The notes beneath the pieces are model-generated. The model was not told the origin of the DNA and did no database searches. It saw nothing but the letters and a program-made list of their open reading frames with translations. This document shows, one piece after another, positions 4,550 through 53,304 of a stretch of DNA of 54,649 nucleotides. The translations under genes were made by a program, and so were the position numbers. This stretch comes from Paludisphaera rhizosphaerae (GTDB taxonomy: Bacteria; Planctomycetota; Planctomycetia; Isosphaerales; Isosphaeraceae), in the NCBI RefSeq assembly GCF_011065895.1, contig NZ_JAALCR010000035.1:1-54649 (forward strand), read 5' to 3'. Numbering within the stretch: position 1 is the stretch's first letter; the number at the start of each line of letters is the position of its first letter.

Positions 4550-4653
4550 TGTCGAGCTTTGGATTTCGCCTAAGCATTCCCGAAACCGCTGCGGCGCTCG
4601 TGCCGCCGAGCTTTCCCACCCCCACGTCAGTCGTCCCTCGTCGGAGGTCCCCG

Positions 4654-6108: not shown

Positions 6109-6279
6109 AGAATAAATGCAGCGGCGGCGGTCTGATCGTCCCGATCGTTAAGGTCGTTCGTGTTCGGGCGGGCTCAACTCGGCGTGACTGGTCGATATAT
6201 CTCTCGTGATCGATGAATCGGTCTCGGAGAGTAGGCGGAAGGATTTCGCCGAACGATCGACGACGTCGAGGATGTTGCG

Positions 6280-16414: not shown

Positions 16415-16541
16415 CGGGCCCTCCCTGGCCGCGCAACCGCGTATCACTTCAATCGTCGTCGTTTTGACGCGTCGGCATCATCCGATTGCGTTCGAGAAGG
16501 CCCCTGGAGTTCACATGACGCCGGCCAGGTCGACAATTCGT

Positions 16542-17900: not shown

Positions 17901-20900
17901 GGATGGAATCCCCCATCGCGTTCTGATGCTGCCGCAGGCGCGACGTGTGCGACCTCACGGACATCCCCGTTCAGATACGGCTCGGAGTCCTCGTGAAGGC
18001 GTGTGAAGTACGGGCTCTCCGGGTCGTCAGGGTCGACCGAAGCGGACTGGCGTCCTGCCCGGCTCTGGACGAGCGCGAAGACGGCCGGAAGAACGAACAG
18101 CGTCGCCGCTGTCGCCGCGAGGAGTCCCCCGATGACGGCCCGACCGAGGGGCGCGGTCTGCTCTCCCCCTTCGCCCCAGCCGAAGGCGATCGGGGCCATG
18201 CCGGCGGTCATCGCGCAGCTCGTCATCAGAATGGGCCTAAGCCGTCCAACGGCCCCATGAATCGCTGCATCCCGCGCATCGGCGGCCCCCTCGCGGCGGC
18301 GGCGCTCGGCGAAGGTGACGAGTAGGATGGCGTTCGCAACGGCGACGCCGATGGACATGATCGCCCCCATGAACGACTGGAGGTTGATGGTGGTCCCCGT
18401 CGCCCAGAGCGCCGCGACCACGCCGCAGACGACGGCTGGGGCGGTCGAGACCGTGACGAATGCGAGCCGGACCGATTGGAAATTCGCCGTGAGCAGGAGC
18501 AGGACGACGACGATGGATGCTGCGAGGCCGAATGAAAGGCCGGAGAGAATCTCACGCATCGGAGCGATCTGACCCCGGACGTCGACCATAACCCCCTTGG
18601 GGGGCTCGCCAGCCCGCGTCAACGCCGCCGCGACCTGGCGGGCGGCCGTCCCCAGGTCCTCGCCGGCGACGTTCGCGGTGAGACTGATGGACCGCTTCAT
18701 GTTGTAGCGGTCGAACTCGCCGGGCATCGTCCCTCGCCGCACGGCCGCGACGTCGCGGAGGAGAAGCGAGGGCCCACCCGGCCTCTGCACGGGGATGGTT
18801 TCGACCTGCTTGACCGAGTCCATGATGGCTATCGGGATCTCGACCTGCACCTGATAACCGATGCCGGTTTTCGGGTCGGGCCAGTAGTTGGGCACCACGA
18901 ATCGGCTTGAGGAAGTGGCTGTGACGAGGGATCGAGAGATTTCCTCAGCCGTGACCCCGCTCAACCCGGCGCGCTCGCGGTCGATGTCGACGACGACTGT
19001 GGGATAGTCGAGGGCCTGGGCGAATTGAAGGTCTCGGAGCGAGGCGACTTTCGCGAGCTCCTCCCGGACTTTCTCGGCGTGGGCTCGGACGTCGGCATAA
19101 CTCGGTCCGCTTACGGTGACCTCGACCGGCGTCGGCGAACCAAAGCTCATGACGTCGCTCACGATATCCGCCGGCTCGAAGGAGAAGTGCACGCCGGGCA
19201 TCGAGGCGGAAAGCCGATCGCGCAATTTTCGTTTGAGGGCCTCAACGTCGACTCCGGACGAATCGTGGAGGGCGACCCGCAGGAGGGCTTCCTCTGGACC
19301 GGCGGTCCATTGATAGATGGCGTTGATCGGGTAGCTCGATGGGATAACGCCGACGTAGCCGACGGAAATCTCGACGCCGCCGCTTCCCACCTCGTCGTCC
19401 ACGGCGGCGAGAGCGGCCTTCGCGATCGTCTCCGTCTTCTCGATCCGGGTGCCGGCCGGCGCCTTGATGCGAAGCTGGAATCGACCTGCGTCGACCTGAG
19501 GGAAAATCTCCATGCCCAGCCTTCGGCCAACCCCGAATACGACGAGGCCCGCGAGGGCCAGATAGGCCGGCACGATAAGCCACCGGAGCATGACCACTCC
19601 CGCCACGGTCCGTTCGTAGGCATCGCACAGGCGACCGAAGAACGAACGTCGCGACGAGTGGGCGGCTGTCTGATGGTTGGATTTGAGCAGCCAGACCGAA
19701 AGGACAGGGACGAACGTGCTCGACAGCAAGTAGGAAGAAACCATCGCGAAGCCGACGGCCAGCGAAAGCGGGACGAAGAGGGCCTGCGCCGCCCCCTGCA
19801 TGAAGAAAGACGGAATGAAAACCGCCAGGATACAGAGCATTGCGAGAAGTCGAGGCACGGCCGTATCGAGATTTCCCTGCCGAACCGCCCTGGCAACGTT
19901 CTCAGCGTCGCCTAACCGGGAATGGATGTTCTCGACCTCCACGGTCGCCTCGTCGACGAGGATCCCGATCGAGAGAGCAAGACCGCCGAGCGTCATCAGA
20001 TTGATGGTTTGACCTGTGAGCCACAATGCGACGACCGCGCCGCAGAGGGCGAAAGGAATGTTCAAAACGACGACGAGGACGCTCCGCCAGTCTCGAAGGA
20101 AAAGCAACACCATGAGCCCGGTCAGAATCGCCCCGAGCGTCCCCTCGACCACAAGGCTTTTCATCGCGTTGGTTACAGTTGGGGACTGGTCGAATTCAAA
20201 GCTGACCTTGATGTCGTCTGGGAGTACGGCCTGCATCGAGGGGAGCGCCGCCTTCACGTTGCCGACGACGGACAGGGTGGAGGCGTCCGCCCGCTTGGTG
20301 ACGAGGATGTAAACGGCCCGCCGCCCGTTCACGAGCGCGTAGCCGGTCGTCGTGTCGGAAGCGTCCTGAACGGTGGCGACGTCGCGTAGGTAGACAGTCG
20401 GGTTCGATCCGGGCCGGATGGGGATCGACTTCAGATCGTCGACCTGCTTCACGAGCGAATTGACCGGGACGATCGGCATCTCGTCGCCGATGCGGACGTT
20501 CCCCGAGGGGCTGATCGCGTTCCCCGAGACGAGAGCTTTTGTCACTTCATCGGGCGACATCCGGTAGGACCGGAGTCGGTCGGGGTCGATGCGAACGACG
20601 ACTGTCCGCTGACTCCCTCCAAACGGAGGAGGAGCGGAAACGCCCGGAAGGCTCGCGAACATCGGCCGGACCTTGAAGAGGGCCTGGTCCTGGATCTCGC
20701 CGATGCTCTTCGTCTCGCTGGAGAGCACGAGGTAGCCGACGGGGACGCTTCCAGCGTCGAATCGGGTGATGAACGGCGAGACCGTGCCCGGCGGCATGAA
20801 GGCCCGCGAGCGGGTGACGTAGCCGATGGTCTCCGCCATCGCCTGGGCCATGTTCGTGCCCGGGTGGAAGTAGAGCTTCATCAGGGCCATGCCCTGAATG

Positions 20901-21151
20901 TTTTTCGACTCGACGTGATGGATGCCGCCGATGTAAAGGAAGTGATACTCGTAGTAGTTGGTTAGCAGCCCTTCCATCTGGGCGGGGTCCATCCCGCCAT
21001 AGGGTTGGCAGACGTAGACGACGGGGAGATTCAGATTTGGGAAGACGTCGATGGGCATTCGGTAAAGGGCAAGCCCGCTGCCCAGGGCCGCCGCGACGAC
21101 GACCACCATCACAGTCAACGGCCGCCGCATCGCGAAGATGATGGGGTTCAT
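17897..21151 (-). CDS. RND efflux permease of the second operon
   Basis: Proton-driven inner-membrane pump of about 1,084 residues. ATG at 21151 is preferred over TTG 21160 because GGAGAG is correctly spaced only for the ATG. The start [26 protein letters not shown] is TM1 of an RND protein. TM4 carries [15 protein letters not shown] with the usual Asp and Glu. Twelve TM segments and two large periplasmic domains are visible. The tail ([23 protein letters not shown]) is shorter than in the first pump but shares its PDDP-(D/E)-S element. It is 40 bases downstream of padR and overlaps the adaptor gene by four bases. Confidence 0.93.
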
Positions 21152-21190
21152 AACTCGCAAACTCTCCGGGCGGGGACGGGCCTCTGAACG

Positions 21191-21550
21191 TCATCCGGGC
21201 GGTTTGCGGCGCTCGGTCTTGATGGACGGCGTCGGCGGTTTGTCTTCGACGACCTCTTTGACGAGTTCTCTGAGCTTGGCCTTGGCCGTCTCGAGGGCCG
21301 CGACCCCCTCCGGAGTCGCACGATAGTACTTGCGCGTCTTGCCCGCGACGACCTCGCTGTACGAGGCGAGGTACCCGGCCTCCTCAAGCTTCTGAAGCAT
21401 CGGGTAGAGAGTGCCGGCCCCAACGTCATAGCCGTGGCGGGCGAGTTCCTCCATCATCTCCACGCCGAAGATCGGCTCCTTTGAAGCGTGGTAGAGGACG
21501 TGCATCCGCACGAACCCTCCGAAGAACATCCTGGTCAGCAGGTCGCTCAC
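21191..21550 (-). CDS. PadR-family transcriptional regulator
   Basis: 119 residues, close to the family's normal size. The winged-helix part reads LYHASKEPIFGVEMMEELARHGYDVGAGTLYPMLQKLEEAGYL, the standard PadR DNA-binding core. A wing (TRKYYRATPEGVAALETAK) and a C-terminal dimer helix follow. PadR proteins usually repress a neighbouring efflux operon until a ligand binds. Being first in the operon with the RND pump, it likely controls itself and genes down to 14822. A perfect palindrome 16 bases upstream of the start (21566-21582) is a candidate operator. Confidence 0.92.
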   Translation of the reverse strand: MSDLLTRMFFGGFVRMHVLYHASKEPIFGVEMMEELARHGYDVGAGTLYPMLQKLEEAGYLASYSEVVAGKTRKYYRATPEGVAALETAKAKLRELVKEVVEDKPPTPSIKTERRKPPG

Positions 21551-21565
21551 GCTTTCGTAGCTCCG

Positions 21566-21582
21566 ATATCGACGCTCGATAT
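21566..21582. promoter_or_regulatory. Candidate PadR operator (perfect palindrome)
   Basis: ATATCGA-CGC-TCGATAT is an exact inverted repeat with 7-base arms and a 3-base centre, lying 16 bases before padR. Its position next to the regulator and its dyad symmetry fit autoregulation. Binding is inferred. Confidence 0.5.
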
Positions 21583-21703
21583 TAGAAAGATTAGCGGATG
21601 CGCCGGCGAGTCGCCCAGTGACGGGCGGGGTTCGGCGGGGAATTCAACGCTCTGGAGCCCCACCGCCTGGACGTCGCATCGCCGACTTCAAAAAGCATCT
21701 ACT

Positions 21704-21731
21704 TTGGACAACAATATGCTTGACTTATATA
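21704..21731 (+). promoter_or_regulatory. Candidate sigma-70-like promoter for the heme/lipase operon
   Basis: TTGGAC (21704-21709), a 16-base spacer and TATATA (21726-21731) lie in the only AT-rich patch of the 428-base gap between padR and the cytochrome gene. They would leave a leader of about 240 bases before the start at 21979. Nothing else gene-like is visible in the gap. Confidence 0.4.
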
Positions 21732-21978
21732 GCCTGTCGGAGTGATAAACAGGCGACCGAATGGCCTGGCCAGGATTTCACATCCGAGGGCCGGCCCCTC
21801 GATGCATGGCATCGCATGAACGCTCGATTGCAATATTAGCCGTCGGCTCGCTGTGGAGGAACGCACGCGAGGTCGATCGTCGTCCGTCCCTTTCGGATCT
21901 TGATACTGACCGAGGCGACGGGATTCTCATGGCCGTGCAGCGACATCGTCCCTCTCACTCGTTTGGGGACAACATCAC

Positions 21979-23862
21979 GTGGTCGCACATCGACGTGTTG
22001 TCTTGAGCTTGTTGCTCGGGTTCCTTTCGCTGGCGAGCTCAGCATCGGCCGCGGAACCGCCGTTGGCTGTGAAAGGATGGCAGGCAACGTCCGAGGACCG
22101 ACGGAACGACGTGAATCGTCACGTCGAAACCAAGACCGCGGAGTGGCGATGGTTCGCGGAAGCGTCACACGGTCAGGAGGCCGGCGCGCCGTTCGTCCTT
22201 CTCCGATTGCTCCCCCAACTCGCCCCGGACATCTGGGGGCCAGGGGACCGCTTCGCGGGGTTCGGCCTCTTCGACCCGCCCGCTGACTATTACCGTGCGG
22301 GGGATGCCTCAAAGCGTCCCCTGCCCTTCGGCCTGGGTTGGGTCGTCGATCCGGTGACCGGCTGGAAGCCTTCCGAGGCCGGTGGAGCGCCGTCGATCCA
22401 TTACGCGAGTCTGACCTGCGCCGCCTGCCACGTCGGACGGGTTCAGACCAAGCCCGGCGAGTCTTCCTACCTCATCGGCGCGCCGAACAACGAAATCGAC
22501 GTCCGCAAGTATCGGCATGCGTTTGAGGCGACGGTGGTCGGCCTCATGTCGACCGACGCGGATCTGGATCGGACGGTGGCGAGCGTTCAGGAGCTCGTCA
22601 AGAAATGGTCCGACGGTGGACGGTCTCCCAACGCCTTCTTCGGCGGCTGGTACGGGATCGACGCCAGAGCGGAGGCCGACGAACTGGCCGTGTATCTGGA
22701 TCCAGTCCGTTGCAAGGCGCTGCTGAAGGACTTCGCGACCAAGGTGCAGCTTGGTCGGCTCGCCGTCGACAAGCAATTGAAGACGAGTTACTCGCTCCCC
22801 TGGGCTCCGCCGCTTGACGGCGGCACGCCTGGCCAGTCCGACGGCAGTGGAGACCTGATTCCCAAGCTATTGCTTTTCCGCGAGGCGGCGCCGCAGGTCT
22901 ACGGTTACACCGTCGATGCTGCCAAAAGTCCGGTCGAGCGGTTTCTCGCCGCAACCTACGTCGAGATGCCCTTTCAACTCGCCACGGCTACGGACGCCAT
23001 GAGCGTCTGGCGGCAAGCCGACCGTCCGTTTGGTCAACTTGACGGCAGCGTGAGATCCCCATTCGTTCGCCAGGTTGCGGCGATGACCGCGGTCGTCGGA
23101 CGGCCGATTGGGGTGAACTACGTCAATGCGGACTTCACGACTCGCTTCCTCCACGAACTCCCTGCCCCCCCCTACCCTTTCCCTGTCGACCTGACGCGAG
23201 CCCAACGAGGCGAAGCCTTGTTCAAGGCCAACTGCGCCGCGTGCCATCGTCCCGGGAACGGGTCGATCTATGGGAGAGAGGTCGTTGACACGGACATGAA
23301 TCGAGCCCGCGTCGTCTCCGATCCGTCGGGGCGCGAGCTTCTCGTCCGCAGCTTCCTGGCGGCGATTCCAAAGGACTATGAGGCCACGGGTCCCGACGGA
23401 ATGCGCTATTTCCCAGGCAAGCAGCCCGAGGCCGAGGTCGTCAACGATCGGTCGCGACCCTGGTCTCAGGGCTACGCAGCCGGGCCGCTCGATGGGATTT
23501 GGGCTCGCGCCCCTTACCTGCACAATGGGTCTGTCCCGACGCTCCGCCAACTCCTCGCGCCGGGGAATCCTGACAGCCGCCGACCGACGGCTTTTCTGCG
23601 AGGTCTGCCCGAATACGACCGGGTGAACGTGGGGTTCTCATGGGACGCACAAGTCGTGAACGGTCGCGTCGACCACGCTCCCACGGCGTCCCTGTTCGAT
23701 ACGCGATGGGACGGCGCTTCCAACCGCGGGCACGATCGCGAGGTGCGCGTCGACGACGAAGGCCGCCCGTCAGCCACGGCTCCGCCGAAGCGCCTTGATT
23801 GGAGCGGGCCTGAACGCCGTACTGACCTCGAAGACCTCCTGGAATACCTGAAGAACCTCTAA
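21979..23862 (+). CDS. Exported di-heme cytochrome c (RoxA/MauG-CcpA-like)
   Basis: 627 residues with a signal peptide (VVLSLLLGFLSLASSASAA); the GTG start has only a weak GGGGA upstream. There are two covalent heme sites: Cys147-Ala-Ala-Cys-His151 and Cys419-Ala-Ala-Cys-His423, the second in GEALFKANCAACHRPG. The C-terminal motif DGIWARAPYLHNGSVP is shared with the cytochrome at 30287 and is typical of the long di-heme peroxidase-like family that includes rubber oxygenase RoxA. Members act in the periplasm on H2O2 or, in RoxA, cleave polyisoprene with O2; which reaction applies here is unknown. It heads a four-gene run, with the AOS-like gene 46 bases downstream. Confidence 0.85.
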   Translation: MVAHRRVVLSLLLGFLSLASSASAAEPPLAVKGWQATSEDRRNDVNRHVETKTAEWRWFAEASHGQEAGAPFVLLRLLPQLAPDIWGPGDRFAGFGLFDPPADYYRAGDASKRPLPFGLGWVVDPVTGWKPSEAGGAPSIHYASLTCAACHVGRVQTKPGESSYLIGAPNNEIDVRKYRHAFEATVVGLMSTDADLDRTVASVQELVKKWSDGGRSPNAFFGGWYGIDARAEADELAVYLDPVRCKALLKDFATKVQLGRLAVDKQLKTSYSLPWAPPLDGGTPGQSDGSGDLIPKLLLFREAAPQVYGYTVDAAKSPVERFLAATYVEMPFQLATATDAMSVWRQADRPFGQLDGSVRSPFVRQVAAMTAVVGRPIGVNYVNADFTTRFLHELPAPPYPFPVDLTRAQRGEALFKANCAACHRPGNGSIYGREVVDTDMNRARVVSDPSGRELLVRSFLAAIPKDYEATGPDGMRYFPGKQPEAEVVNDRSRPWSQGYAAGPLDGIWARAPYLHNGSVPTLRQLLAPGNPDSRRPTAFLRGLPEYDRVNVGFSWDAQVVNGRVDHAPTASLFDTRWDGASNRGHDREVRVDDEGRPSATAPPKRLDWSGPERRTDLEDLLEYLKNL

Positions 23863-23908
23863 AGCAAGGCCTCCGACTCCACCTCCCCACGCCCCGGAGC
23901 GACCAACG

Positions 23909-24979
23909 ATGGCACGCACCGAAGAAGAGCTGAAGGCGCCGATCGACGAGGATTTCCGGAACGTCATCCAGCAAATGATTGATCTCTTCACGCGGGTCTC
24001 GAAGATCGTCCACGGTCGCGCTACACACACCACGGGAATCGCGGCGCGGGGCTTTGCGAGGATCATCACCCCGCCCGACTTTCCCCCTTGCGACTTCCTG
24101 AAATTCGGCAACGTCTATCCCGTCGTCGTCCGGCACGCCACTCCCAGAACTGCGCTGGCCCCCGACCCCGACCCGACCAAGCCCCCGCTCGTGGACGTCG
24201 ACGACCGGACTCTCGACGGCGGCGCCATGTCCATCAAGTTCCTGCAGCCCAACGATGCCAGCGGTCTGGGCTTTCACGATGTGATGATGAATACGGGACG
24301 CGTCCTCTTCGTCCGATCCGCTCGCGCCTTCAACACGATGATTCATACGCCGTTCGGAAAACGCGCCCCCCTGCTCCGCGTTAAGGGGAAGGACGATTGG
24401 GTCATCGACGATGAGAAGCTGACGGAGGCCTATCGAACCGGATCGTTCACCGAATTCTACTACCACAGCCAGATCGCGTTCGAGCTGACCGACTCCAACG
24501 GCGTCGTCCGTTACATCAAGTTCCGCAGCATCCCCGGCGACCGCGGCCCGGAGCGAGGCCTCTTCCCACCTGAAATCCGAGCGGGGGGTGATACGTTCGC
24601 GCCTCGATGGACGGACGACGATCGCGCCGAGAACTTCCGCCGAACCGACTTCGCGACGCGAGTCAATCACCTGGGCGTCGACTACATCCTCCAGGCTCAA
24701 CTCCATCCTTCGGGCGACGCCGACGCCCTGAACCCGTCGGAGTACTGGGACGAGCGTTACCACCCCTGGCTCGACGTGGCCCAGATCCATCTGTCCCGAA
24801 CGCTGACCCATGAAGAGATGGACGCCCTGGAATTCGACGCCAACCGGACTCACTCCAGCATCAACCTGCCGTTGGCGAAAACGGCCGACGACTACGCTTC
24901 GATGGGTCATGCTCGGGCGCTAATCTACTGGACCGTCCGCAAGGCCCGCCGCGATTCGCCGCAGCCTCACCGCGACTAG
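23909..24979 (+). CDS. Catalase-related heme protein, allene-oxide-synthase-like
   Basis: 356 residues, the size of the catalase-related allene oxide synthase (cAOS) domain and much shorter than true catalases. Alignment by eye gives distal Thr39-His40 (GRATHTTG), distal Asn128 (DVMMNTG) and the proximal R-x-x-x-Y heme ligand motif Arg336...Tyr340 (RALIY). In coral cAOS a Thr next to the distal His (instead of Val in catalases) suppresses H2O2 breakdown and favours fatty-acid hydroperoxide conversion; the same Thr-His pair is present here. IPGDRGPERGL and YHPWLDVAQIHL are further family landmarks. No signal peptide is seen, so it is probably cytoplasmic. No lipoxygenase is encoded nearby, so the hydroperoxide source is open. 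Confidence 0.8.
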   Translation: MARTEEELKAPIDEDFRNVIQQMIDLFTRVSKIVHGRATHTTGIAARGFARIITPPDFPPCDFLKFGNVYPVVVRHATPRTALAPDPDPTKPPLVDVDDRTLDGGAMSIKFLQPNDASGLGFHDVMMNTGRVLFVRSARAFNTMIHTPFGKRAPLLRVKGKDDWVIDDEKLTEAYRTGSFTEFYYHSQIAFELTDSNGVVRYIKFRSIPGDRGPERGLFPPEIRAGGDTFAPRWTDDDRAENFRRTDFATRVNHLGVDYILQAQLHPSGDADALNPSEYWDERYHPWLDVAQIHLSRTLTHEEMDALEFDANRTHSSINLPLAKTADDYASMGHARALIYWTVRKARRDSPQPHRD

Positions 24980-25043
24980 GCTCAAGACGGGACTCGAAGC
25001 TCACAGGCACGAGACGCTGGGATCGAAGCGGGGAGCCTCATTG

Positions 25044-28000
25044 ATGGCGACTTCGGACGACCAGAAGCAGGCCGCCTTCAAGCGCATCGAGGAAGCGAGC
25101 CTGAAGCTCATCGACCTGAACCAGCGTCCGGTGCCCCGGGATCAGCACCCGAAGCATCACGGCTGCGTTCGCGCGAAGTTCGTCATCAAGCCAGGGCTCG
25201 ACGCCAAGTACAGACAGGGTCTGTTCAGTGAGCAGGCTGTCTACGACGCGTGGGTCCGTTTTTCGAACGGCCGCCAACACGACGACGCCAAGGCGGACGC
25301 TCACGGGATGGCCGTGAAAGTGATGGGAGTCAATGGCCCCAAGGCCCTCGATGAGGAACCGGACGGTCGAACGCAGGATTTCGTGATGGTCGACCACCCC
25401 GTTTTCTTTCTACGGGGCGCCGAGGACTACGCCGACTTCAGCGACGCCGTCCTCGCGGCCCAGGGGAAGATCCGCACGACCGTCCGGACGCTCCTCCGCT
25501 CGATACTCCCGAACGAGGCGGCCTCGGCGGGGACGCTGTTCCTTCTCTACTTCTTCCCGACTCGCCTGGGAACCTTGCGCCTCGTCCGCACCTTCGCGTC
25601 GAAGCTCATCGCCAACCCGCTGACGACTCGGTACTGGAGCACGACGCCTTACCGTTTCGGCTCCGGCGCGGCGATGAAGTTCACCGCGAGGCCGGCGAGC
25701 CTTCCTGTGAGCGTCGTTCTCGATCCTGCACAGAAAGACGAATCTCCCGAGTCTGAATACACGCGACTTACCAAGTATCTCGGCAAGGCTGTGGTCATCG
25801 AGACCCAACCCAAGGCCGAGATCCAAACCGCGCCCAACTATCTCCGAGAGGCGATGATCGCCTCGCTCCGGGACGGCAAGGACGCCGTCTTCTCGTTTCA
25901 GGTCCAACTCGGGCAAAACAATCGCTCGACCCCGATCGAGGACCCGACCGTCGAGTGGCCGGAGAAGGGGAAAACCCAACCGGAGACGGTTGCTTGGCTC
26001 TGGATCCAAGCTCAGGATTTCGCCGACCCGCGTCGCGACGCGTTCGCGGAGAACCTCTCGTTCACCCCCTGGCACGCCCTGAAGGCCCATGAGCCGCTCG
26101 GTGAGATCAACGAGATCAGGAAACTCGTCTACAAGCGGGTCTCGGCGGCGCGCCACGCCGCGAACGGGATGCAGGAGCATGAGCCGCAGGCCAGCGACCC
26201 CGATCCGCTCACCGTTCCGGGGCCGGCACGCTGGGGAGACGACCCGTCGGCTTTCGGCGCCGTCCTCTCGGATGAGCTGGATCTGATCTGGCAGCGTCGC
26301 AAACGCCTCGTCGATTCTGATGGAAAGCTGATCGAGCCCGAAGAGAGCAGACCAGGGCCCACGCCTCCTTACACCCCGGGAGACGAGGACGCCCGGACGA
26401 AGGCCCATCGGCTTCGAGCCCTTCGAGGACATGTCACGGGCCTGGCGATTTCGGGCGGCGGAATTCGGAGCGGGACGTTCGCCGTGGGTTTCTTGCAGGG
26501 GCTGGCGGCCCTCGGGCTCATCAGGCGGTTCGACTATCTCTCGACGGTCTCTGGCGGCGGTTACGCCGGAGCCTGGCTGACGGCCTGGCTCAAACGCGAA
26601 GGGGGCGACCCGCGCAACGTCGAGAAAATGCTCTCGCCGAGCCGCGTCGACCAGGCGGATGCTCATCGGGAATACGTGGATGGGCAGGTCGTCGATACAG
26701 AGTCCGACCCGATCCGCCATCTGCGCGCATACAGCAGCTATCTGTTCCCCCAGGGAGGCATCCTCTCGGCCGATCCATGGACGGTCGTCCTGATCTGGCT
26801 ACGGAACGTCGTAATCAACTTCCTGATGCTGCTGCCGGCGATCATGCTTGTGGTCGTCGCCGTGCGACTGGCGGTCCTGCTCTATGGGGCGTTCAATCCA
26901 TTGGAGATCGAGTCCCCCGGCAAGTATCTTGCGTTCTCCTTGTTGTTCGCCGCGCTCGGGCTGCTGGCTGGGATATCGGCCTATCGTAGTAACGCCGAGG
27001 CCTTGAGACTGATCCGTTCCAGACCTCCCGCCGATCCTTCCCTAAGCAGTCTGGGACCGCCCACGGAGGTGCGCTCGCGAGTCAACCGGGGCGTCCTGCT
27101 GCCGGCCTTCCTCGCCTTCTTCCTGCTGACGCTTTCGATCCGTCCCCTGTTCTGGGCGATCGGCGACTATCTAGCGAACCAGCGTCTGCGCCTGACGCGT
27201 ACAGACCTACCGGAAAACGGCCTGGCGAAGCTGGCGGCGCAGGGATTTCAGTTCGCCTTCGATTTCCTGCAATCGAACCTGGATCTCCTGGGGCTGCCGA
27301 TGTTCCTGGGGATCGGTCTTTTCGTCGGCCTGTTGACCGCCTGGGGAGGGCGGAAGAACGTCCCTCCGACGCCACCCCACTCCCGCCCGCATTTCATCTG
27401 GGCCTCGTTCATCGCTGGAGCGACCGGCGGCGTACTCTTCGTCCTGGTTGCGGGCCTGATCCGGGCTTTCGCGCGAGGCGTTCGACCTGACCTGATGGCG
27501 ATGTTCGCCACCCCGCTGGGGCTCCTCGTCGTGGTCGCGGTCCTGATCGTGTTGGTGGCCCTGCTCGGCCGACGCATTGACGAGGCGGAACGAGAGTGGT
27601 GGGCTCGCCTGAGCGCTTCGGTATCGCTGCGGGCCGCGATCTGGGTGGGGCTGTTCGCGACGATTCTCTACGTCCCTGGGCTGTTCCTCTCGGCGGGCCC
27701 CTGGCTGCGGACGGCGATCGCCTCCGGCTGGGCCGGGAGCGCGGCGGTCGCCGTGTTCTCGGGACATTACATCCTGCCAAGGCTGGGCCCGATCGGCGGC
27801 AACCGACTTACCTCGATCCTCGCCCTGCTCTCGGGCGTTTTCCTCGTCGGCCTCGTCGGCGCGGTGGCGCTTCTCGCCTCGCTGCTGGCGAACATCCCGT
27901 CGCCGCTGGCCCCCTCGGCCGACGACATCAGCCGCTTCGCATATTACCTACGAGGTGTCAACGGGGGGGACGCCTCGCAGTACGACCTGCTTTTCGAGGC

Positions 28001-30230
28001 GCTCCGGCTCGTCCTGATCGGGGTCGCCTCCCTGGTCATGTTCGTGCTGGCTCGGCGCTTGATCGACGTCAACCTGTTCTCGCTGAACGCGATGTACGCC
28101 AACCGACTGACCCGATGCTATCTGGGCGCCTCGCGGTCCAAGCCGACGTGGGAAGATCGCTGGAAACTCCCGCGAGACGCTCGGGCCGAAGTCGGGGCGC
28201 CGTCGCTGAGTCACGAAGACGGGCCGCCTCGCATGGAGAACCCTGTCACCGGCTTCGACCCTCATCGAGACGATCTGACGCTCCGCAGCCTGAAGATCGG
28301 GACCGGCGACGCCGCCCACCCTTACCTCGGGCCCCACCTGCTGATCAACACCTCCCTCAACCTGGTCGGCGAGAACTCGCTGCAGCTCCGCGACCGCAAG
28401 GGGGACTCCTTCGTCCTATCGCCCCTCTATTGCGGCTCTCCGCGTGTCGGTTATTCGAAGCTTGAGCCTGTGCCGGAGTCCGACGCCGACGACGACCTGA
28501 CCCTCGGCCGGGCCGTCTCAATCTCCGGCGCGGCCGTCGACCCGAACATGAGCTTCTATCAGTCGGGAACGCTCACCGCTCTGCTGACCCTCTTCAACGC
28601 GCGGTTGGGTTACTGGATCGAGAAGCCCGGAACTTCCGGATGGGCGGCCCGGAGCCCCGTCTTCGGCGACCTCATCCTGAACGAGTTCTTCGGCCGGACG
28701 AATGACCGCGGCGACTTCGTCCACATCTCCGACGGCGGCCACTTCGAGAACATGGGCGTCTATGAGTTGATCCGACGCCGATGCCGATACATCGTCGCCC
28801 TGGACGTCGGCGATGACGGCGACCCTTCGAGCGACAACCTGGCCAACCTGATCCGGCTCTGTCGCATCGACTTCGGCGTGCGCATCAGGGTCGACACACG
28901 CGGCCTGACCATGCAAGGCCCGGACAAACTCACTCGCAGCCACGTCGCGGTCGGGAGCATCCACTATGAGGACGTCGACCGGGGGGAAATGCCCGGCGTC
29001 CTCGTCTACGTCAAAAGCTCCCTGACGGGAGACGAACCCCCAGACGTCCAGAAGTATGCCCGGAAAGACTCCCGTTTCCCCCACCAGCCGACGGATTTGC
29101 GGCAGTCGTTCGACGAGGAGCAGTTCGAGAGCTATCGCTCCCTGGGCGACCACATCGCCTGGGAAGTCTTCGCCGATCCGGTGGACCAGATCCGTAACGA
29201 CTTGCGCGACCAGGGTCGCGGACCGGCTGACTCCGTTCCGCATGAGGAATACGCATCGCGGCTGTTCGCCGCGGTTCAGGATCGCTGGCTCGAAGTCCCC
29301 GACGGTTTGGACGCCCTTTACGCCTCGATGAGCCGCGATTGGCCGGAGATCCAGGGGGATCTCGCGAACCGGTCGGGCCTGGGCGCCCTAAGCCGCAGTC
29401 TTTACCCAGACGTCGAGGTCCCCGACGGCGAGGCGGGGGTCTCCCTGCGTCGCGAGGAGCTGCACACCGTCGCCCGGATGCTCGCCGCGATGGAGAACGC
29501 CTGGCTTGGGCTTTCGATGCAGCGGACCTCGGCTCTCCCGCTGAATCGCGGCTGGATGAACGCCTTCCGAAGGTGGGCCGGCTCCGACGCTTTCCGCCGG
29601 GCCTGGCCGATCCTGCGATCCGAATACAGCGACCAGTTCGTTCGGTTCTGCGAGGACGAGCTACACCTTCAGACCGCCAGGCCATCGGCAATCCGGCTGG
29701 AAGTCGGCTTCGACCAGCTCGACGACGCGGACGGGCGCAAGAAAGCCCTCGATCTGATGGACGAGGAGTTCGCCCGCGACTGGCCCGACGAGCACCGGGC
29801 CGAGCGGGGCGTCCTCGACCAGGCACGAAAGAGCCTGACCGTCGACGGAAAGCCGGCGGTCTGGCTGATGGCCCAGGCTTCCTCGGAATACTCTGAGGCT
29901 CGGCAGTCCCCCGCCCCGCTCTACGGCGGCGTGATCCTGGCCGTCGCGATCGGCGATGCGGCCGACGCTCCGGTCGAGATCGCCGTCTGGGTCAGGCCGC
30001 CGTATCGTCAAATCGGGCTGGGATCGATCTGCCTCTCCGAAGTCATGGCGGAACTGGACCCGAAGCTCAGCGGCAGGCTCCTCCTGACCCGCTACCCCGA
30101 TGACGATCCAGGCGAGGATCAGAGCTATCTGAGTTTCCTTCGATTCTTCTCCCGGTACGACTTCCGCCCCATCTCGAGCAAGGCGAGTCTCGCAAGACCG
30201 GGATCCACGACGTTGCAACGGCCGGCTTGA
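25044..30230 (+). CDS. Giant fusion: catalase-like domain + membrane-embedded patatin lipase + GNAT-like domain
   Basis: 1,728 residues from ATG 25044 (GGGGAG eight bases upstream). Residues 1-375 are a catalase-like (y4iL-type) heme domain: His38-His39, VRFSNG, QDFVMVDHPVFF and proximal Arg359-KLV-Tyr363; the usual distal Asn appears to be Asp117. Residues 460-1300 are a patatin phospholipase: oxyanion loop GGGIR (471-475), nucleophile Ser503 in TVSGGG, Asp1230 in SDGGHFENMG. Between Ser503 and Asp1230 lie about nine or ten hydrophobic segments (about 585-1003), so the lipase is membrane-anchored. Residues about 1540-1715 resemble a GNAT acetyltransferase, with an acetyl-CoA loop R1655-QI-G-L-G1660. 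It would release acyl chains at the membrane and process oxidised lipid or peroxide; activity is inferred. Confidence 0.85.
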   Translation: MATSDDQKQAAFKRIEEASLKLIDLNQRPVPRDQHPKHHGCVRAKFVIKPGLDAKYRQGLFSEQAVYDAWVRFSNGRQHDDAKADAHGMAVKVMGVNGPKALDEEPDGRTQDFVMVDHPVFFLRGAEDYADFSDAVLAAQGKIRTTVRTLLRSILPNEAASAGTLFLLYFFPTRLGTLRLVRTFASKLIANPLTTRYWSTTPYRFGSGAAMKFTARPASLPVSVVLDPAQKDESPESEYTRLTKYLGKAVVIETQPKAEIQTAPNYLREAMIASLRDGKDAVFSFQVQLGQNNRSTPIEDPTVEWPEKGKTQPETVAWLWIQAQDFADPRRDAFAENLSFTPWHALKAHEPLGEINEIRKLVYKRVSAARHAANGMQEHEPQASDPDPLTVPGPARWGDDPSAFGAVLSDELDLIWQRRKRLVDSDGKLIEPEESRPGPTPPYTPGDEDARTKAHRLRALRGHVTGLAISGGGIRSGTFAVGFLQGLAALGLIRRFDYLSTVSGGGYAGAWLTAWLKREGGDPRNVEKMLSPSRVDQADAHREYVDGQVVDTESDPIRHLRAYSSYLFPQGGILSADPWTVVLIWLRNVVINFLMLLPAIMLVVVAVRLAVLLYGAFNPLEIESPGKYLAFSLLFAALGLLAGISAYRSNAEALRLIRSRPPADPSLSSLGPPTEVRSRVNRGVLLPAFLAFFLLTLSIRPLFWAIGDYLANQRLRLTRTDLPENGLAKLAAQGFQFAFDFLQSNLDLLGLPMFLGIGLFVGLLTAWGGRKNVPPTPPHSRPHFIWASFIAGATGGVLFVLVAGLIRAFARGVRPDLMAMFATPLGLLVVVAVLIVLVALLGRRIDEAEREWWARLSASVSLRAAIWVGLFATILYVPGLFLSAGPWLRTAIASGWAGSAAVAVFSGHYILPRLGPIGGNRLTSILALLSGVFLVGLVGAVALLASLLANIPSPLAPSADDISRFAYYLRGVNGGDASQYDLLFEALRLVLIGVASLVMFVLARRLIDVNLFSLNAMYANRLTRCYLGASRSKPTWEDRWKLPRDARAEVGAPSLSHEDGPPRMENPVTGFDPHRDDLTLRSLKIGTGDAAHPYLGPHLLINTSLNLVGENSLQLRDRKGDSFVLSPLYCGSPRVGYSKLEPVPESDADDDLTLGRAVSISGAAVDPNMSFYQSGTLTALLTLFNARLGYWIEKPGTSGWAARSPVFGDLILNEFFGRTNDRGDFVHISDGGHFENMGVYELIRRRCRYIVALDVGDDGDPSSDNLANLIRLCRIDFGVRIRVDTRGLTMQGPDKLTRSHVAVGSIHYEDVDRGEMPGVLVYVKSSLTGDEPPDVQKYARKDSRFPHQPTDLRQSFDEEQFESYRSLGDHIAWEVFADPVDQIRNDLRDQGRGPADSVPHEEYASRLFAAVQDRWLEVPDGLDALYASMSRDWPEIQGDLANRSGLGALSRSLYPDVEVPDGEAGVSLRREELHTVARMLAAMENAWLGLSMQRTSALPLNRGWMNAFRRWAGSDAFRRAWPILRSEYSDQFVRFCEDELHLQTARPSAIRLEVGFDQLDDADGRKKALDLMDEEFARDWPDEHRAERGVLDQARKSLTVDGKPAVWLMAQASSEYSEARQSPAPLYGGVILAVAIGDAADAPVEIAVWVRPPYRQIGLGSICLSEVMAELDPKLSGRLLLTRYPDDDPGEDQSYLSFLRFFSRYDFRPISSKASLARPGSTTLQRPA

Positions 30231-30286
30231 ACCGGGGCTCGACAGGCGGTTGCAGGTTTCACCGACGACCCTTGAGGGAGACGCTG

Positions 30287-32917
30287 ATGGCCGTGCGGTC
30301 GCGATTCGCCAAGGGGGCACGCGGCCTCCTCCTGGTTCTGGGCATCCTCATCGCCCTGTTGCTCCTGTACATCGTCCTCGCCCCGCTGCTGGGGATCGGC
30401 GGCGTCACGACGCCCGCCGCGCAGGGGCCGCTTACGGTACGTCTGGATCAGGGTTGGAACGGTTACGACTCGCTTCGCTTCCACCACTCGACGCAGGGCT
30501 CGCGAATCCTTCCGCTCAGTTGGTTCATGGCCCTCGAGCAACCCGTCTTCACTCCTCTTCCGGTCGGCCTGCTCGCGGAGCGCGACTACATGGGCCGGTT
30601 CGGCTTCATGTACGAAACTGAGAGGCCGGCCGCCGTGAAGTCGGGCGTTCTCGAACCGACGCCCAAGGGGGCGCCCGCGAAAGACCCTTATGCGGAGGCC
30701 AAGCTTGCCCAGGACGATTTCGACCTGCCTCTCGGCTTCGCCATCCATCGCAACTTCAAAGCCCCCTATGCGGACCCGCCGGTCTCGACCGAGACTCCCG
30801 TGGTCGGGCTCACCTGCGCCGGCTGCCATACGGGGCGACTCGACGTCAAGCTGGAGGACGGCACCCTGAAGTCGGTGATGATCGAGGGGGGATCAGCGAT
30901 GATCCACATCACCAACTTCCAGCAGGCGGTCGGCCGGGCGCTGTTCTTCACCCAGTTCTTCAAGGAACGGTTCCGTCGATTCGCGCGAGCCGCCCTGGGC
31001 GAGTCGCTGCCGGACGACAACCCCAGGATCCTGGCGCTGAAGAAGGACCTGGATCGGTTCATCGAACTCGGCCTGGCGAGCGAGGACTACGCCAAGGAGC
31101 ACAAGCTCAACTCAACGCTCTCGGGCTACTCGCGGACCGACGCGCTCGGCCTCATTGGCAATCGCGTCTTCGGCGTCCTGAACCAGGAAAACCAGGTGGT
31201 TACAGACGCGCCGGTCAACTTCCCGCACTTGTGGGATACGCCCTGGTTCGACTGGGTCCAGTACAACGGGTCGATCCGCACGCCGATGGCGCGGAACATC
31301 GGCGAGGCGCTCGGCGTGGGCGCGGTCATCAATTTGAAGGACCCACTGAAGCCGACCGATCCCCCGCTCTACGAATCCTCAGTCCACCTTGCCAACCTGT
31401 CCTGGATGGAAGATGCGCTCGGCGGCGACGAACCATTCCAGGGGCTGCAACCGCCGAGCTGGGCGGACATGGCCCGCAAGGTCTTCGGCAACGATCCCCC
31501 CGCGGGCTCGCCTTATGCCATCAATCGGGAGATGGCCGAGGCTGGGGAGAAGCTCTACAAGGCGAACTGCGTCCGCTGCCATCTTCCTCCCCATAAGACC
31601 CTGACGGCCGTGCCGGATCGATCCCACTCCGAGTATTTCTCGAAGCCGGATCCGGGCAGCGGCAAGCACTTCCTTCGGCTGAACGTCGTGGGTCTGAACG
31701 TGATCGGCACCGACCCCAATCAGGCGCTCAACTTCTACCGCCGGGTCGCCACCGCGCCCGAGCCGCCGACGCGCGCTTATTCCAACACCGACGACGACGC
31801 CGCTCAGCAGAGGGTGGATTACGCGAAGCAACAGGCCGTGAACGAAAACTACGCCTACTGGTCCAGGCTCGTCCGGCAGGCGACGCCGAATTCCTCCAGC
31901 TTCGCGATGATCTCGGCCGAGGACGGGCTCTTTCGCGTCACGTCGATGATCCGACGGCTCCAGTACCAGAGCCAGCAGTACCAACTCCTGCCGCCCAAAC
32001 TTGAACTCCAAAAGCTCCTTGAACACCACGAAGGCGACATTCAGCGCGCTGGCGCCGGCCTGGTCGTCGTTGCGTTCGTAGGAGACGCCCTGTACTGCCG
32101 CGTCTTCGACGTCGACGGCGTGCCCGTCATTGATCGAAGCGAGCGTGACGTGAAGACGCCTCCCGCTCGCCTCGCGGCCCTCAAACAGAGCCTCAAAGCT
32201 CAGCAGCCCGGCAGCCTTCCCGTCGCGAAATACCTCGGCGAGATCGCCGCTGTCTTTTTCCCCGACCAGGCCAGGTTCTTCGACGAGAAGTCGCGAACTG
32301 AGCAACGGAAGCGATGGGACCGATACCGGGCAATCCCCGCGCCGCTCGACCTCGGCGACGAGCGTGCGATCCTCGAAGCCGCGGGCAAGGACTGGGTGAT
32401 CATGGCGAACCTCGGATACCGGGCTCGCCCTCATGACGGGATCTGGGCCACGCCGCCGTTCCTTCACAACGGCTCGGTGCCAAATCTCTACGAGATGCTC
32501 GTGCCGGCGAAGGAGCGGAGCCCGAAGTTCTATCTCGGCTCCACCCGTTTCGATCCCGTCCGCGTCGGCTATGAGTCGAGCCAGTTCCACGGCGGATTCG
32601 AGATGGATACGTCACTCCCCGGCAATACGAACGTCGGCCACGAATTCCGTAACTTCACCCTGGAGGATTTCGAGTACCTCAAAGGCACGCCCCCGAACGA
32701 GAAGTCCACGCTGGCGCAACGATGGTGCGACGTCCTCGGAATCGAGGAGACGGAATATCATGCCCTGGTGAAACAAGACGCGCTGAAGGCGTTGATCACA
32801 AAGAAGACCCACGAGCGGCTCGACGAGCCTGGACCGCGTGCGATCAAGGGAGTCATCGGCGCGGAGTTCACAGACGACGAGCGTTGGCGGCTGGTGGAGT
32901 ACCTCAAGACTCTGTGA
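30287..32917 (+). CDS. Membrane-anchored di-heme cytochrome c with inserted domain
   Basis: 876 residues. ATG 30287 (site GAGGGAG at 30274-30280) is chosen over the open frame from 30227, which overlaps the previous stop. One TM segment (about 13-35) anchors a periplasmic body. Heme sites are Cys177-AG-Cys-His181 and Cys428-VR-Cys-His432. The C-terminal DGIWATPPFLHNGSVP and the YLGSTRFDPVRVGY stretch match the RoxA/di-heme peroxidase-like family. About residues 505-690 are an extra module absent from the cytochrome at 21979, containing GLVVVAFVGDALYCRVFDVDG. I recall similar 'IFDxDG' modules in cyanobacterial and planctomycete multidomain proteins, of unknown role. It is the last gene of the heme/lipase run. 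Confidence 0.84.
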   Translation: MAVRSRFAKGARGLLLVLGILIALLLLYIVLAPLLGIGGVTTPAAQGPLTVRLDQGWNGYDSLRFHHSTQGSRILPLSWFMALEQPVFTPLPVGLLAERDYMGRFGFMYETERPAAVKSGVLEPTPKGAPAKDPYAEAKLAQDDFDLPLGFAIHRNFKAPYADPPVSTETPVVGLTCAGCHTGRLDVKLEDGTLKSVMIEGGSAMIHITNFQQAVGRALFFTQFFKERFRRFARAALGESLPDDNPRILALKKDLDRFIELGLASEDYAKEHKLNSTLSGYSRTDALGLIGNRVFGVLNQENQVVTDAPVNFPHLWDTPWFDWVQYNGSIRTPMARNIGEALGVGAVINLKDPLKPTDPPLYESSVHLANLSWMEDALGGDEPFQGLQPPSWADMARKVFGNDPPAGSPYAINREMAEAGEKLYKANCVRCHLPPHKTLTAVPDRSHSEYFSKPDPGSGKHFLRLNVVGLNVIGTDPNQALNFYRRVATAPEPPTRAYSNTDDDAAQQRVDYAKQQAVNENYAYWSRLVRQATPNSSSFAMISAEDGLFRVTSMIRRLQYQSQQYQLLPPKLELQKLLEHHEGDIQRAGAGLVVVAFVGDALYCRVFDVDGVPVIDRSERDVKTPPARLAALKQSLKAQQPGSLPVAKYLGEIAAVFFPDQARFFDEKSRTEQRKRWDRYRAIPAPLDLGDERAILEAAGKDWVIMANLGYRARPHDGIWATPPFLHNGSVPNLYEMLVPAKERSPKFYLGSTRFDPVRVGYESSQFHGGFEMDTSLPGNTNVGHEFRNFTLEDFEYLKGTPPNEKSTLAQRWCDVLGIEETEYHALVKQDALKALITKKTHERLDEPGPRAIKGVIGAEFTDDERWRLVEYLKTL

Positions 32918-32956
32918 GCGCTCGATGCCATTCCGACGGTCGATCCGGGGGTCGAG

Positions 32957-32973
32957 CTATACGCCGCGTATAG
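32957..32973. promoter_or_regulatory. Perfect 17-bp palindrome, copy 1 of the TATAC-N5-GTATA motif
   Basis: CTATACGCCGCGTATAG is an exact palindrome (8-base arms, one centre base) 40 bases after the cytochrome stop. Related sites lie at 33139-33153 and 34598-34612. Candidate binding site for ParB or the antitoxin. Confidence 0.5.
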
Positions 32974-33138
32974 GCGGCCTCCGGAGTCGAAGAGCAGGGG
33001 AGTCGGGAGCCTGGACCGGTGGGGATGTCAGAGTGATTTGCGTCGAGATGACAGACGCCGTAGGGTTGTTGAACGGGTAGCCCGGGCGGGTCGCCTGGAC
33101 TACTGCTCCCGCTTGGCTTCAATCCTGAACGATCTGCT

Positions 33139-33153
33139 TATACTCCGCGTATA
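33139..33153. promoter_or_regulatory. TATAC-N5-GTATA motif, copy 2
   Basis: TATACTCCGCGTATA lies just beyond the antitoxin stop codon. Its right half plus flank (CCGCGTATAGG) is identical to copy 1, so the two are probably sites for the same protein. Confidence 0.45.
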
Positions 33154-33170
33154 GGATGGCTCGAGGGTCG

Positions 33171-33560
33171 TTACACCCCGCCTCGAATCGGCGGAGCCAA
33201 TCGACGACGCCAGTAATCGGGGTCAGCCTCGATCTCTCCCATGAATCGCCGTGCGATGGGACTTGGTGGACGCGTCCCCTGTTCCCAGGCCCGGACGGTA
33301 TTGGCGCCTACCCCGAGAAATCGGGAGAAGACGACCTGGCTCATCTCCAGCAGATCCCGAACGCGGCGGACGTCGGCGGGCCCGTATTGAGGAAGCGCGA
33401 AATCGGCGGCGTACGTCCTCACGGTGAGTTTCGTTGCGGGGGACCGAGCCTCGGATCGAACGGCCTCGATCGCCTCGTCGAAGGCTGCGACGATTCGAGA
33501 ACCCGCCGTCGAGAGCGAACGGTCCGCTCGCTCCGCCCTACGGTCAGTTGTTCGCTTCAT
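33171..33560 (-). CDS. XRE/HigA-type antitoxin
   Basis: 129 residues from ATG 33560; the open frame extends to 33635 but the extra part is Gly/Arg-rich shadow of the toxin gene. The C-terminal half is a helix-turn-helix of XRE type (LLEMSQVVFSRFLGVGANTVRAWEQGTRPPSPIARRFM). The N-terminal half would neutralise the toxin. It overlaps the upstream toxin gene by 17 bases, in toxin-first (HigBA) order. Antitoxins of this class repress their own promoter, so the nearby palindromes are possible targets. Likely role: plasmid stabilisation. Confidence 0.82.
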   Translation of the reverse strand: MKRTTDRRAERADRSLSTAGSRIVAAFDEAIEAVRSEARSPATKLTVRTYAADFALPQYGPADVRRVRDLLEMSQVVFSRFLGVGANTVRAWEQGTRPPSPIARRFMGEIEADPDYWRRRLAPPIRGGV

Positions 33561-34226: not shown

Positions 34227-34504
34227 CGAACGAACCCAACGTGGCCCGCCGCCACGATCCGCCCTGCGGCTCCCCGAAGCCGGCCAACGCGAGCCGTACC
34301 GCCGCCGCGCACCAGAAATCTGACCAAACGAACCCAAACGCCCGCACGAGGAGGGGACGCCGTAATGCAAACGGCGGTCAGCCGGTTCAGCGACGAACAA
34401 ACCCAAACTCTGGCCCCGCCACGATTCGCCCGGCAGCTTCCTGAAGGCATTTAGGAAGAACCTCGCCACGGAAACACGCTGAAGAAGTCGCCGAACGAAC
34501 CCAA
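34227..34504 (+). repeat. Four CGAACGAACCCAA repeats in a 98/69/98 spacing
   Basis: Copies at 34227-34239 (CGAACGAACCCAA), 34325-34337 (CAAACGAACCCAA), 34394-34406 (CGAACAAACCCAA) and 34492-34504 (CGAACGAACCCAA). Start-to-start distances are 98, 69 and 98, so the block is two 167-base units. Copies 1 and 3 also share a downstream GCCACGAT(C/T)CGCCC segment, which supports an old tandem duplication. Possible roles are a partition or replication site; it could instead be a dispersed chromosomal repeat of the host. Confidence 0.6.
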
Positions 34505-34597
34505 TGTCCCGTCGCCTACAGGTCACGAGGACGGCGGCAGAATCGAACGCCTGCGGCGCGCGATCGAACCCACGCCGAGGGGCGGTTCAGAAAGGCT

Positions 34598-34612
34598 TAT
34601 ACGCAGGGTATA
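34598..34612. promoter_or_regulatory. TATAC-N5-GTATA motif, copy 3, upstream of parA
   Basis: TATACGCAGGGTATA lies 50 bases before the parA start. Its position suits an operator for parAB autoregulation or a ParB-binding site. Binding is inferred from position and symmetry. Confidence 0.45.
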
Positions 34613-34662
34613 CCCGGGCCGATATCTCCCCCTGTGGAAACGGACTTCAGGGAGGGGGACGC

Positions 34663-35478: not shown

Positions 35479-35479
35479 A

Positions 35480-53238: not shown

Positions 53239-53304
53239 CAGCGACCCCTTCAAAGGAGCAACAACACTCGCTCGGCTGTTGTTGTTAGTTGGCAAGGTAA
53301 CAAG

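Follow-up and report, generated by a model that had tools for sequence, protein, structure and literature searches.

A recurrent, mobile set of di-heme cytochrome, catalase-fold and patatin genes as a candidate lipoxygenase-independent pathway for fatty-acid hydroperoxides

The catalase-related allene oxide synthases (cAOS) of corals and cyanobacteria are typically fused to, or encoded beside, a lipoxygenase (LOX). A contig of Paludisphaera rhizosphaerae (C35 of the 8.05 Mb assembly), which was analysed over its whole length of 54,649 nt and is called the window here, contains a gene for a protein resembling these enzymes, flanked by genes for a patatin-containing protein and di-heme cytochromes. 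This raises the question of whether these genes belong together and, if so, which chemistry they could carry out. The relevant features are as follows.

Gene 1: 21979-23862, + strand, predicted RoxA-like di-heme cytochrome, 627 aa, GTG start
Gene 2: 23909-24979, + strand, predicted cAOS-like protein, 356 aa
Gene 3: 25041-30230, + strand, predicted catalase-like/patatin fusion, 1729 aa, with an ATG at 25044
Catalase-like heme domain of gene 3: 25041-26210, + strand, with R33xxH36xK38 and R360xxxY364
Patatin domain of gene 3: 26442-28740, + strand, with the hydrophobic insertions counted in, up to DGG (residue 1231)
Gene 4: 30287-32917, + strand, predicted di-heme cytochrome, 876 aa from the ATG
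ParA/ParB: 34504-36409, closest to Isosphaeraceae plasmid proteins
RepA: 51766-53295, closest to Isosphaeraceae plasmid proteins

The original prediction described four genes in the same direction with gaps of 46, 64 and 56 bases, and the coordinates agree: all four genes are located on the + strand with gaps of 46, 61 and 56 bases, the second being 64 when measured from the ATG. An alternative TTG start of gene 4 at 30227 would result in an overlap with gene 3. As to the likely promoter that the genes were thought to share, a single transcript is plausible from the layout, but a screen of region 21100-33300 with a sigma-70 pattern, from which planctomycete promoters may differ, revealed no sigma-70-like promoter.

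The best matches of ParA and RepA are encoded by a plasmid of Planctomyces sp. SH-PL62 (82% and 76%, respectively), and the next-best by plasmids of Isosphaera, Singulisphaera and other Isosphaeraceae, which argues that the window contig is very probably an Isosphaeraceae plasmid. When the two contig ends were compared as a check for circularity, they shared no exact overlap between 15 and 399 bases long. A foreign base composition of the module was ruled out, its GC content (0.645) lying within that of its surroundings (0.63-0.67), and a phage origin was rejected as there was no phage match at E 1e-5. Among the other genes of the contig are RND efflux sets, genes for chemotaxis and PSD/DUF1552 genes of the planctomycete type. 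One complete tripartite RND set (14822-21160, - strand) is divergent from the upstream region of the module and could export products; a second RND set is located at 998-7902 (+ strand).

Di-heme cytochromes were expected at both ends of the set, and the family searches agree. The product of gene 1 has a hydrophobic leader, two CXXCH motifs (CAACH at 147-151 and 419-423) and the sequence PYLHNGSVP; it matches RoxA-like_Cyt-c (E 6.9e-17) and scores 137.8 bits with NF040606 (di-heme cytochrome c peroxidase), under the curated cut-off of 150. We assign it from its sequence as a periplasmic RoxA-like di-heme cytochrome. Gene 4 passes the NF040606 cut-off with 411.6 bits, and its product contains an N-terminal hydrophobic anchor, CAGCH at 177-181, CVRCH at 428-432 and PFLHNGSVP, together with an insert that is absent from eight aligned relatives. 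For both proteins, RoxA (4b2n) is the best relative in the PDB, the other matches being short heme-motif matches or chance. The likeness to RoxA lies in the C-terminal heme region and the PY(F/L)HNGSVP motif; in contrast, the N-terminal half is barely alignable, pocket residues are changed, and the NCBIfam models for RoxA, RoxB and RoxC gave 36-54 bits, far from their cut-offs of 900-1000. The AlphaFold model of gene 1 is of low confidence (pLDDT 50.7) and was left out of the structural comparison.

At three RoxA pocket sites, all of which were aligned through a weak HMM segment (6.5 bits), gene 1 has Gln353 (F301), Leu354 (W302) and Ala368 (F317). Trp at the W302 site is kept in the gene 1 relatives of S. 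terangae, P. yeei and locus L082. Gene 4 has a Gln at seemingly the same site as F301, according to a motif comparison by eye. A Q-x-[DN]-x-S motif is present in six of ten sequences of the gene 1 type and in seven of ten of the gene 4 type (DHC), with its Gln being aligned to RoxA F301 in gene 1 and the DHC site being equated by eye.

Genes 1 and 4 also resemble the FadCcp proteins PA2077/PA2078 of the oleate diol synthase operon of P. aeruginosa, for which we draw on parts of PMC4496055. These are likewise paired periplasmic di-heme proteins with two CXXCH motifs and a PY(F/L)HNGSVP-type motif. PA2077, which is RoxA-like, converts oleic acid into the 10-hydroperoxide and needs both hemes to do so; cells tolerate its overexpression only when the whole operon is expressed, including PA2078, the consumer of the hydroperoxide. 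The same parts of PMC4496055 report the change of RoxA F301 to Gln for both proteins. Compared by published values, gene 1 has the leader, the two CXXCH motifs, PY(F/L)HNGSVP, the length of about 620 aa and the Gln at the F301 site that are described for FadCcp. The heme spacing is 272 (gene 1) and 251 (gene 4) residues versus 245 and 235 in PA2077/PA2078 (PMC4496055, in part), with ranges of 238-273 for the gene 1 type (n = 10) and 229-308 for DHC (n = 10), wider than the 199 of RoxA. Unlike gene 1, with Leu and Ala in the weak segment mentioned above, PA2077 has Trp at W302 and FadCcp has Phe at F317 (same source, in part). No PA2077/PA2078 was identified among 381 genomes of the Halioglobus order, and we do not class gene 1 as a FadCcp.

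The assignment of gene 2 as AOS-like was upheld. Its best solved relative is coral AOS 1u5u (E 2.5e-27), its identity to Plexaura homomalla cAOS is 26-30%, and the Pfam catalase model does not recognise it (E 0.098). The residues R37, T39, H40, N128, R336 and Y340 correspond to the coral catalytic set R64, T66, H67, N137, R349 and Y353, a list that, R349 apart, is taken from the consulted part of PMC5617202, and all six residues are kept in six of the six module cAOS sequences. The predicted structure of gene 2 (pLDDT 86.9) gave Z 37.1 with 1u5u (rmsd 2.5 over 322 residues), versus 27-28 with a mycobacterial catalase-related protein and about 25-26 with true catalases. With AOS ahead in both sequence and fold, an ordinary catalase was rejected as the closest family. 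Sequence and model thus indicate a catalase-related allene-oxide-synthase-like protein, which has no leader. At coral position 150, the module cAOS proteins share a Phe with the coral lyase; gene 2 may therefore be a synthase or a lyase, and we refer to it as cAOS-like and not as an AOS. Gene 2 differs from the coral enzyme in this Phe, in belonging to a separate clade, and in having no LOX fused to it, in its locus or in its genome; a linked LOX is usual for the coral enzymes but is no condition for belonging to the fold family.

In a phylogenetic tree, the module cAOS sequences (n = 6) form one clade with 100/100 support, apart from 20 others. Within this clade the two sequences from Planctomycetota are separated, in keeping with transfer, although the fork parting them has a support of only 81/75; Schlesneria and Bryobacterales come together with a support of 98/97. 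In many LOX-linked cAOS homologues (L021, L022, L024, L027, L029, L030, L038 and others), the motif at the distal His is MSHxN or MSHxQ, not ATHT, and Tyr is missing from the column of the proximal ligand, where rows end at the tblastn match, some of them before that column. By their sequences, these homologues are perhaps a separate subfamily with another ligand.

Gene 3 had been described as a catalase-patatin-GNAT fusion, of which the first two parts are borne out and the third is weak. Its sequence points to a y4iL-type catalase-like domain (residues about 1-390), a patatin phospholipase and a weakly GNAT-like tail. The catalase-like start, which has no leader, stays below the Pfam catalase cut-off (E 0.11), and 118 plasmid records align over 80% of its length or more. 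R33xxH36xK38 and R360xxxY364 are invariant in six aligned domains, and the catalase Asn position is lost, as judged by eye. In the part of PMC4417212 consulted, the y4iL-type catalase-fold family is called uncharacterized, and CD08152 is related to y4iL of NGR234. The patatin part passes its Pfam cut-off (32.1 versus 27.7 bits), with a putative dyad of Ser504 in TVSGG, in which the first Gly is replaced, and Asp1231 in DGG. Hydrophobic segments are located in between, at residues 590-1008; the two dyad residues could meet only with an even number of segments, and a simple hydropathy scan gave nine. The tail scores 13.5 bits with Pfam Acetyltransf_1 (GNAT; E 0.087, cut-off 20.7) over a stretch at about 1630-1672, and no plasmid relative of it was found at E 0.01. 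The term "membrane system", used before for the whole module, applies to the inserted segments of gene 3 and the anchor of gene 4, and is limited to those parts.

Do the four families occur together elsewhere, as had been proposed, and in the same order? A cAOS alignment scanned against genome contigs identified 22 loci. Searching plasmids brought in pNGR234a and, with cAOS matches of reduced length, six plasmids of Sinorhizobium, one of which was inspected. The close relatives found with gene 2 are from Schlesneria, an acidobacterium (Bryobacterales) and two Sinorhizobium, one copy being broken. In three of the 22 loci (42-49% identity) and in pNGR234a, a RoxA-like cytochrome, a second DHC and a catalase-like protein are encoded beside cAOS. 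At E 1e-4, di-heme cytochromes plus catalase were found beside cAOS in none of the other 19 loci (24-30% identity). This contrast (4/4 versus 0/19) gives Fisher 1.1e-4, and 6.5e-4 once the near-copy pNGR234a is removed. It depends chiefly on the longer loci because seven of the 19 have <3 kb on one side; nine have 5 kb or more on both. A fifth case came from searching with gene 1: L082, a 5.2 kb contig of a genome in the Pseudomonadales sample, has a patatin piece, RoxA, catalase and cAOS. It was missed by the cAOS contig scan, and more module loci may therefore exist.

With L082 included, cAOS, the RoxA-like cytochrome and the catalase-like protein occur together in all five other module loci. 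The second DHC is present in four, the exception being the short contig of L082, and patatin sequence also in four, in two as pieces only. Co-occurrence was thus found, but the gene order differs between the loci:

Window: RoxA-cAOS-catalase/patatin-DHC
Schlesneria: (DHC+RoxA fused)-cAOS-catalase, followed by 2.4 kb that contain no patatin
Bryobacterales (Acidobacteriota): DHC-RoxA-cAOS-catalase-patatin
S. terangae: RoxA-(catalase+cAOS fused)-DHC-patatin piece
pNGR234a: RoxA-catalase-cAOS-DHC-patatin, the reading frames being broken within RoxA and across catalase-cAOS; its catalase, at 410107, is presumably y4iL itself

The presence of the same families together in other phyla argues that the module is more than chance, and these comparisons indicate that it is real, recurrent and mobile. 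Of the copies on symbiosis plasmids, that of NGR234 (L009, 8932-12951) is interrupted by frame breaks and that of S. sojae (L011) is truncated next to an IS110 gene, while S. terangae retains open frames, which suggests decay in some nodule strains.

The module is also rare. Gene 2 was found in one of 45 genomes of the family, the source genome itself, and a homologue in two of 392 genomes of the phylum sample, the second being distant and LOX-linked. A gene 1 alignment run on 392 genomes of the window phylum, 347 of the Bryobacterales phylum, 381 of the Halioglobus order and 376 of the S. terangae class gave at least one, one, four and two matches of 300 bits or more, respectively, centre genomes included; at most three candidates per genome were scored, so that weak or extra copies can be missed. 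The set of full-type gene 1 loci (n = 11) comprises the window, L009, L016, L018, L019, L020, L082, L083, L084, L085 and L093, with pNGR234a (L009) and Paracoccus yeei (L016) among them; the latter has gene 1 matches on four plasmids, one of them inspected. A catalase-like protein adjoins the gene 1 type in nine of these loci and a DHC in eight (two of the three misses are on contigs <10 kb); cAOS is present in six, four of which were chosen by cAOS and one of which is the window. None of five weaker gene 1 loci (L086-L090) has catalase or cAOS. A catalase-RoxA-DHC trio without cAOS is present in L084 and L093, with the catalase having a leader-like N-terminus (by eye), and in L085 the RoxA-like gene is alone; cAOS is therefore not obligatory for the set. 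Among the weaker loci, a DHC and a patatin match are about 9 kb apart in L089, and two di-heme cytochrome genes enclose a match to an animal-type peroxidase in L087 (2782-10493, Pseudomonadales sample).

The distant cAOS loci have another partner. A LOX is present in 16 of these 19 loci, some matches being weak (to E 4e-6), and is fused in frame with cAOS in five; PF00305 matches were found in all 19 genomes, the LOX being on another contig in three. None of the four close relatives has a LOX in the locus (0/4 versus 16/19; Fisher 0.004), and none was found in L082 within its 5.2 kb contig. The earlier remark that the window lacks a LOX extends to the whole genome, in which the PF00305 search gave 0 matches; the same search matched 21 of 24 genomes, a count in which one genome was entered twice (as G235, the genome of L033, and as G450). 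In total, one of five module genomes (window, L018, L019, L020 and L082) has a LOX versus 19 of 19 distant ones (Fisher 4.7e-4), or one of three versus 19 of 19 when only genomes found with gene 2 are counted (Fisher 0.013). The exception is Schlesneria, where the LOX is on another contig. The search of the L082 genome had no positive control within its run, the same model having matched in other genomes, and several genomes are MAGs, so that absence of LOX is not proof. L007 (542-3227, the start of L033) has a cAOS homologue followed by a lipase-like frame (GHSMGSA, by eye), with a LOX on the other strand.

Domain fusions tie the parts of the module together: DHC+RoxA in the Schlesneria MAG (1259 aa, four CXXCH), catalase+cAOS in S. 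terangae (687 aa) and catalase+patatin in gene 3. The first is provisional, since the Schlesneria and Bryobacterales contigs are from MAGs. Partners are also exchanged. A P450 is located between DHC and the RoxA-like gene in L083, and the same P450 family (32-40% identity) follows DHC in Bradyrhizobium (L017) and DHC plus a regulator gene in Methylobacterium (L012). In Paracoccus yeei (L016), an animal-type heme peroxidase comes after RoxA and catalase. Phyllobacterium encodes a fusion of a peroxidase of this kind with the catalase-like domain, and patatin is located upstream past two short annotated genes. Thus, di-heme cytochromes repeatedly travel with a hydroperoxide-capable heme enzyme. 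The Bradyrhizobium plasmid (L017, 5025-13186) has an oleate hydratase about 3 kb upstream of DHC and P450, suggesting oleate chemistry, and a 46 kb plasmid of Methylobacterium currus has a peroxidase family gene, a catalase and DUF1353. Rhizobium DHC-patatin loci are near trypsin-like, caspase, DUF1353 and lysozyme genes (L013, L014 and L049, for these loci and the M. currus plasmid together).

The observed families, predicted cAOS fold, kept residues, linkage, fusions and LOX/di-heme exchange are best explained by a mobile, LOX-independent fatty-acid-hydroperoxide pathway of di-heme oxygenase(s) and cAOS/catalase-like converters, to which we give about an even chance. In this pathway, the patatin of gene 3 would free acyl chains at the membrane; gene 1 and/or gene 4, acting like PA2077, would oxygenate an unsaturated chain with O2, yielding a hydroperoxide; and gene 2, assisted by the catalase-like part of gene 3, would rearrange or break this hydroperoxide. 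Candidate products are an allene oxide, epoxy alcohol, aldehyde or ketol. The proposed substrate and product, the sequence of steps and the assignment of the cytochromes as oxygenases are inferred from the chemistry of PA2077 together with the shared motifs, the wide heme spacing and the Gln at the F301 site. The idea that a di-heme cytochrome may substitute for the missing oxygenation step was part of the original prediction and fits, by analogy, the PA2077 work (PMC4496055, in part). The maker and consumer of a hydroperoxide would be paired as in PA2077/PA2078, with a catalase-fold enzyme as the proposed consumer here.

The weakest point of this pathway is its compartments. Cytochromes of the c type mature in the periplasm. 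The two cytochromes are apparently outside and gene 2 and the catalase domain, without leaders, inside; the hydroperoxide would therefore have to cross the membrane. The Ala and Leu of gene 1 at the F317 and W302 sites, placed by the weak 6.5-bit segment, would also argue against the pathway, as would the loci without cAOS and the LOX on another contig of the Schlesneria genome.

The main rival, which we regard as less likely, is a peroxide defence in which lipid hydroperoxides and H2O2 are broken down by the module. Cytochrome c would then feed the di-heme proteins, acting as peroxidases in the periplasm; gene 2 together with the catalase-like domain would form an inner defence, and the patatin would excise damaged acyl chains from phospholipids. 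The name of the family to which gene 4 belongs (di-heme cytochrome c peroxidase) fits this, as do the wide distribution of this catalase-like type on plasmids (122 records), the trios without cAOS in which the catalase has a leader-like N-terminus, and a plasmid catalase homologue adjoining a sigma factor and a ChrR-type anti-sigma gene. However, the module cAOS keeps the cAOS residues and has a fold nearer to AOS than to catalase, and Capnella cHPL and cAOS have kcat values of 133.5 and 1835 per s on 8R-HpETE versus about 3 and 303 on H2O2, the 303 being not negligible (PMC5617202, in part). Peroxide defence alone also gives no account of the mutual replacement of LOX and di-heme cytochromes around cAOS, or of the swap to a P450 or an animal-type peroxidase. 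It is improbable that genes 1 and 4 are RoxA-like oxygenases cleaving rubber-like polymers, carotenoids or squalene-type chains, with the catalase-fold proteins handling by-products: RoxA is indeed their best PDB relative, through its C-terminal heme region, but the scores with the Rox models are far below the cut-offs, the F301Q change of gene 1 is that of PA2077/PA2078, and patatin and cAOS point to acyl substrates. Least probable is a conflict module whose oxidases and membrane patatin would produce oxidised lipids that are toxic to competitors or phages; plasmid location and the caspase-like, trypsin-like and lysozyme genes near related patatin-DHC loci on Rhizobium plasmids would suit it, but no such genes are among the annotated or family-scanned neighbours of cAOS loci (those of L018-L020 scanned in part).

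The hydroperoxide pathway has the logic of fungal DOX-CYP and coral cAOS-LOX, in which an oxygenase is paired or fused with a hydroperoxide-converting heme enzyme (parts of PMC13049297 and PMC5617202), with the P450 in L083 taking the place of cAOS and that in L017 and L012 following DHC; it differs in that the oxygenase candidate is a c-type di-heme cytochrome. In the literature searched, with most subscription journals outside it and PMC11719350 covered in part, no description of the module as a set was found. The families are known and their combination is new.

We tentatively suggest that the set may be a second bacterial route to allene oxides or related oxylipins, one independent of LOX, in which di-heme cytochromes of the c type would be the primary fatty-acid dioxygenases for a dedicated cAOS clade. 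The set would be spread by plasmids, among them the symbiosis plasmids of rhizobia, and across Planctomycetota, Acidobacteriota and Pseudomonadota. If so, the oxygenase step of oxylipin formation would be replaced by an enzyme unrelated to LOX, and the poorly known RoxA-like/NF040606 cytochromes would gain a testable substrate class. Nodulation plasmids such as pNGR234a would then carry a possible oxylipin pathway, whose products could act on plant jasmonate-type signalling.
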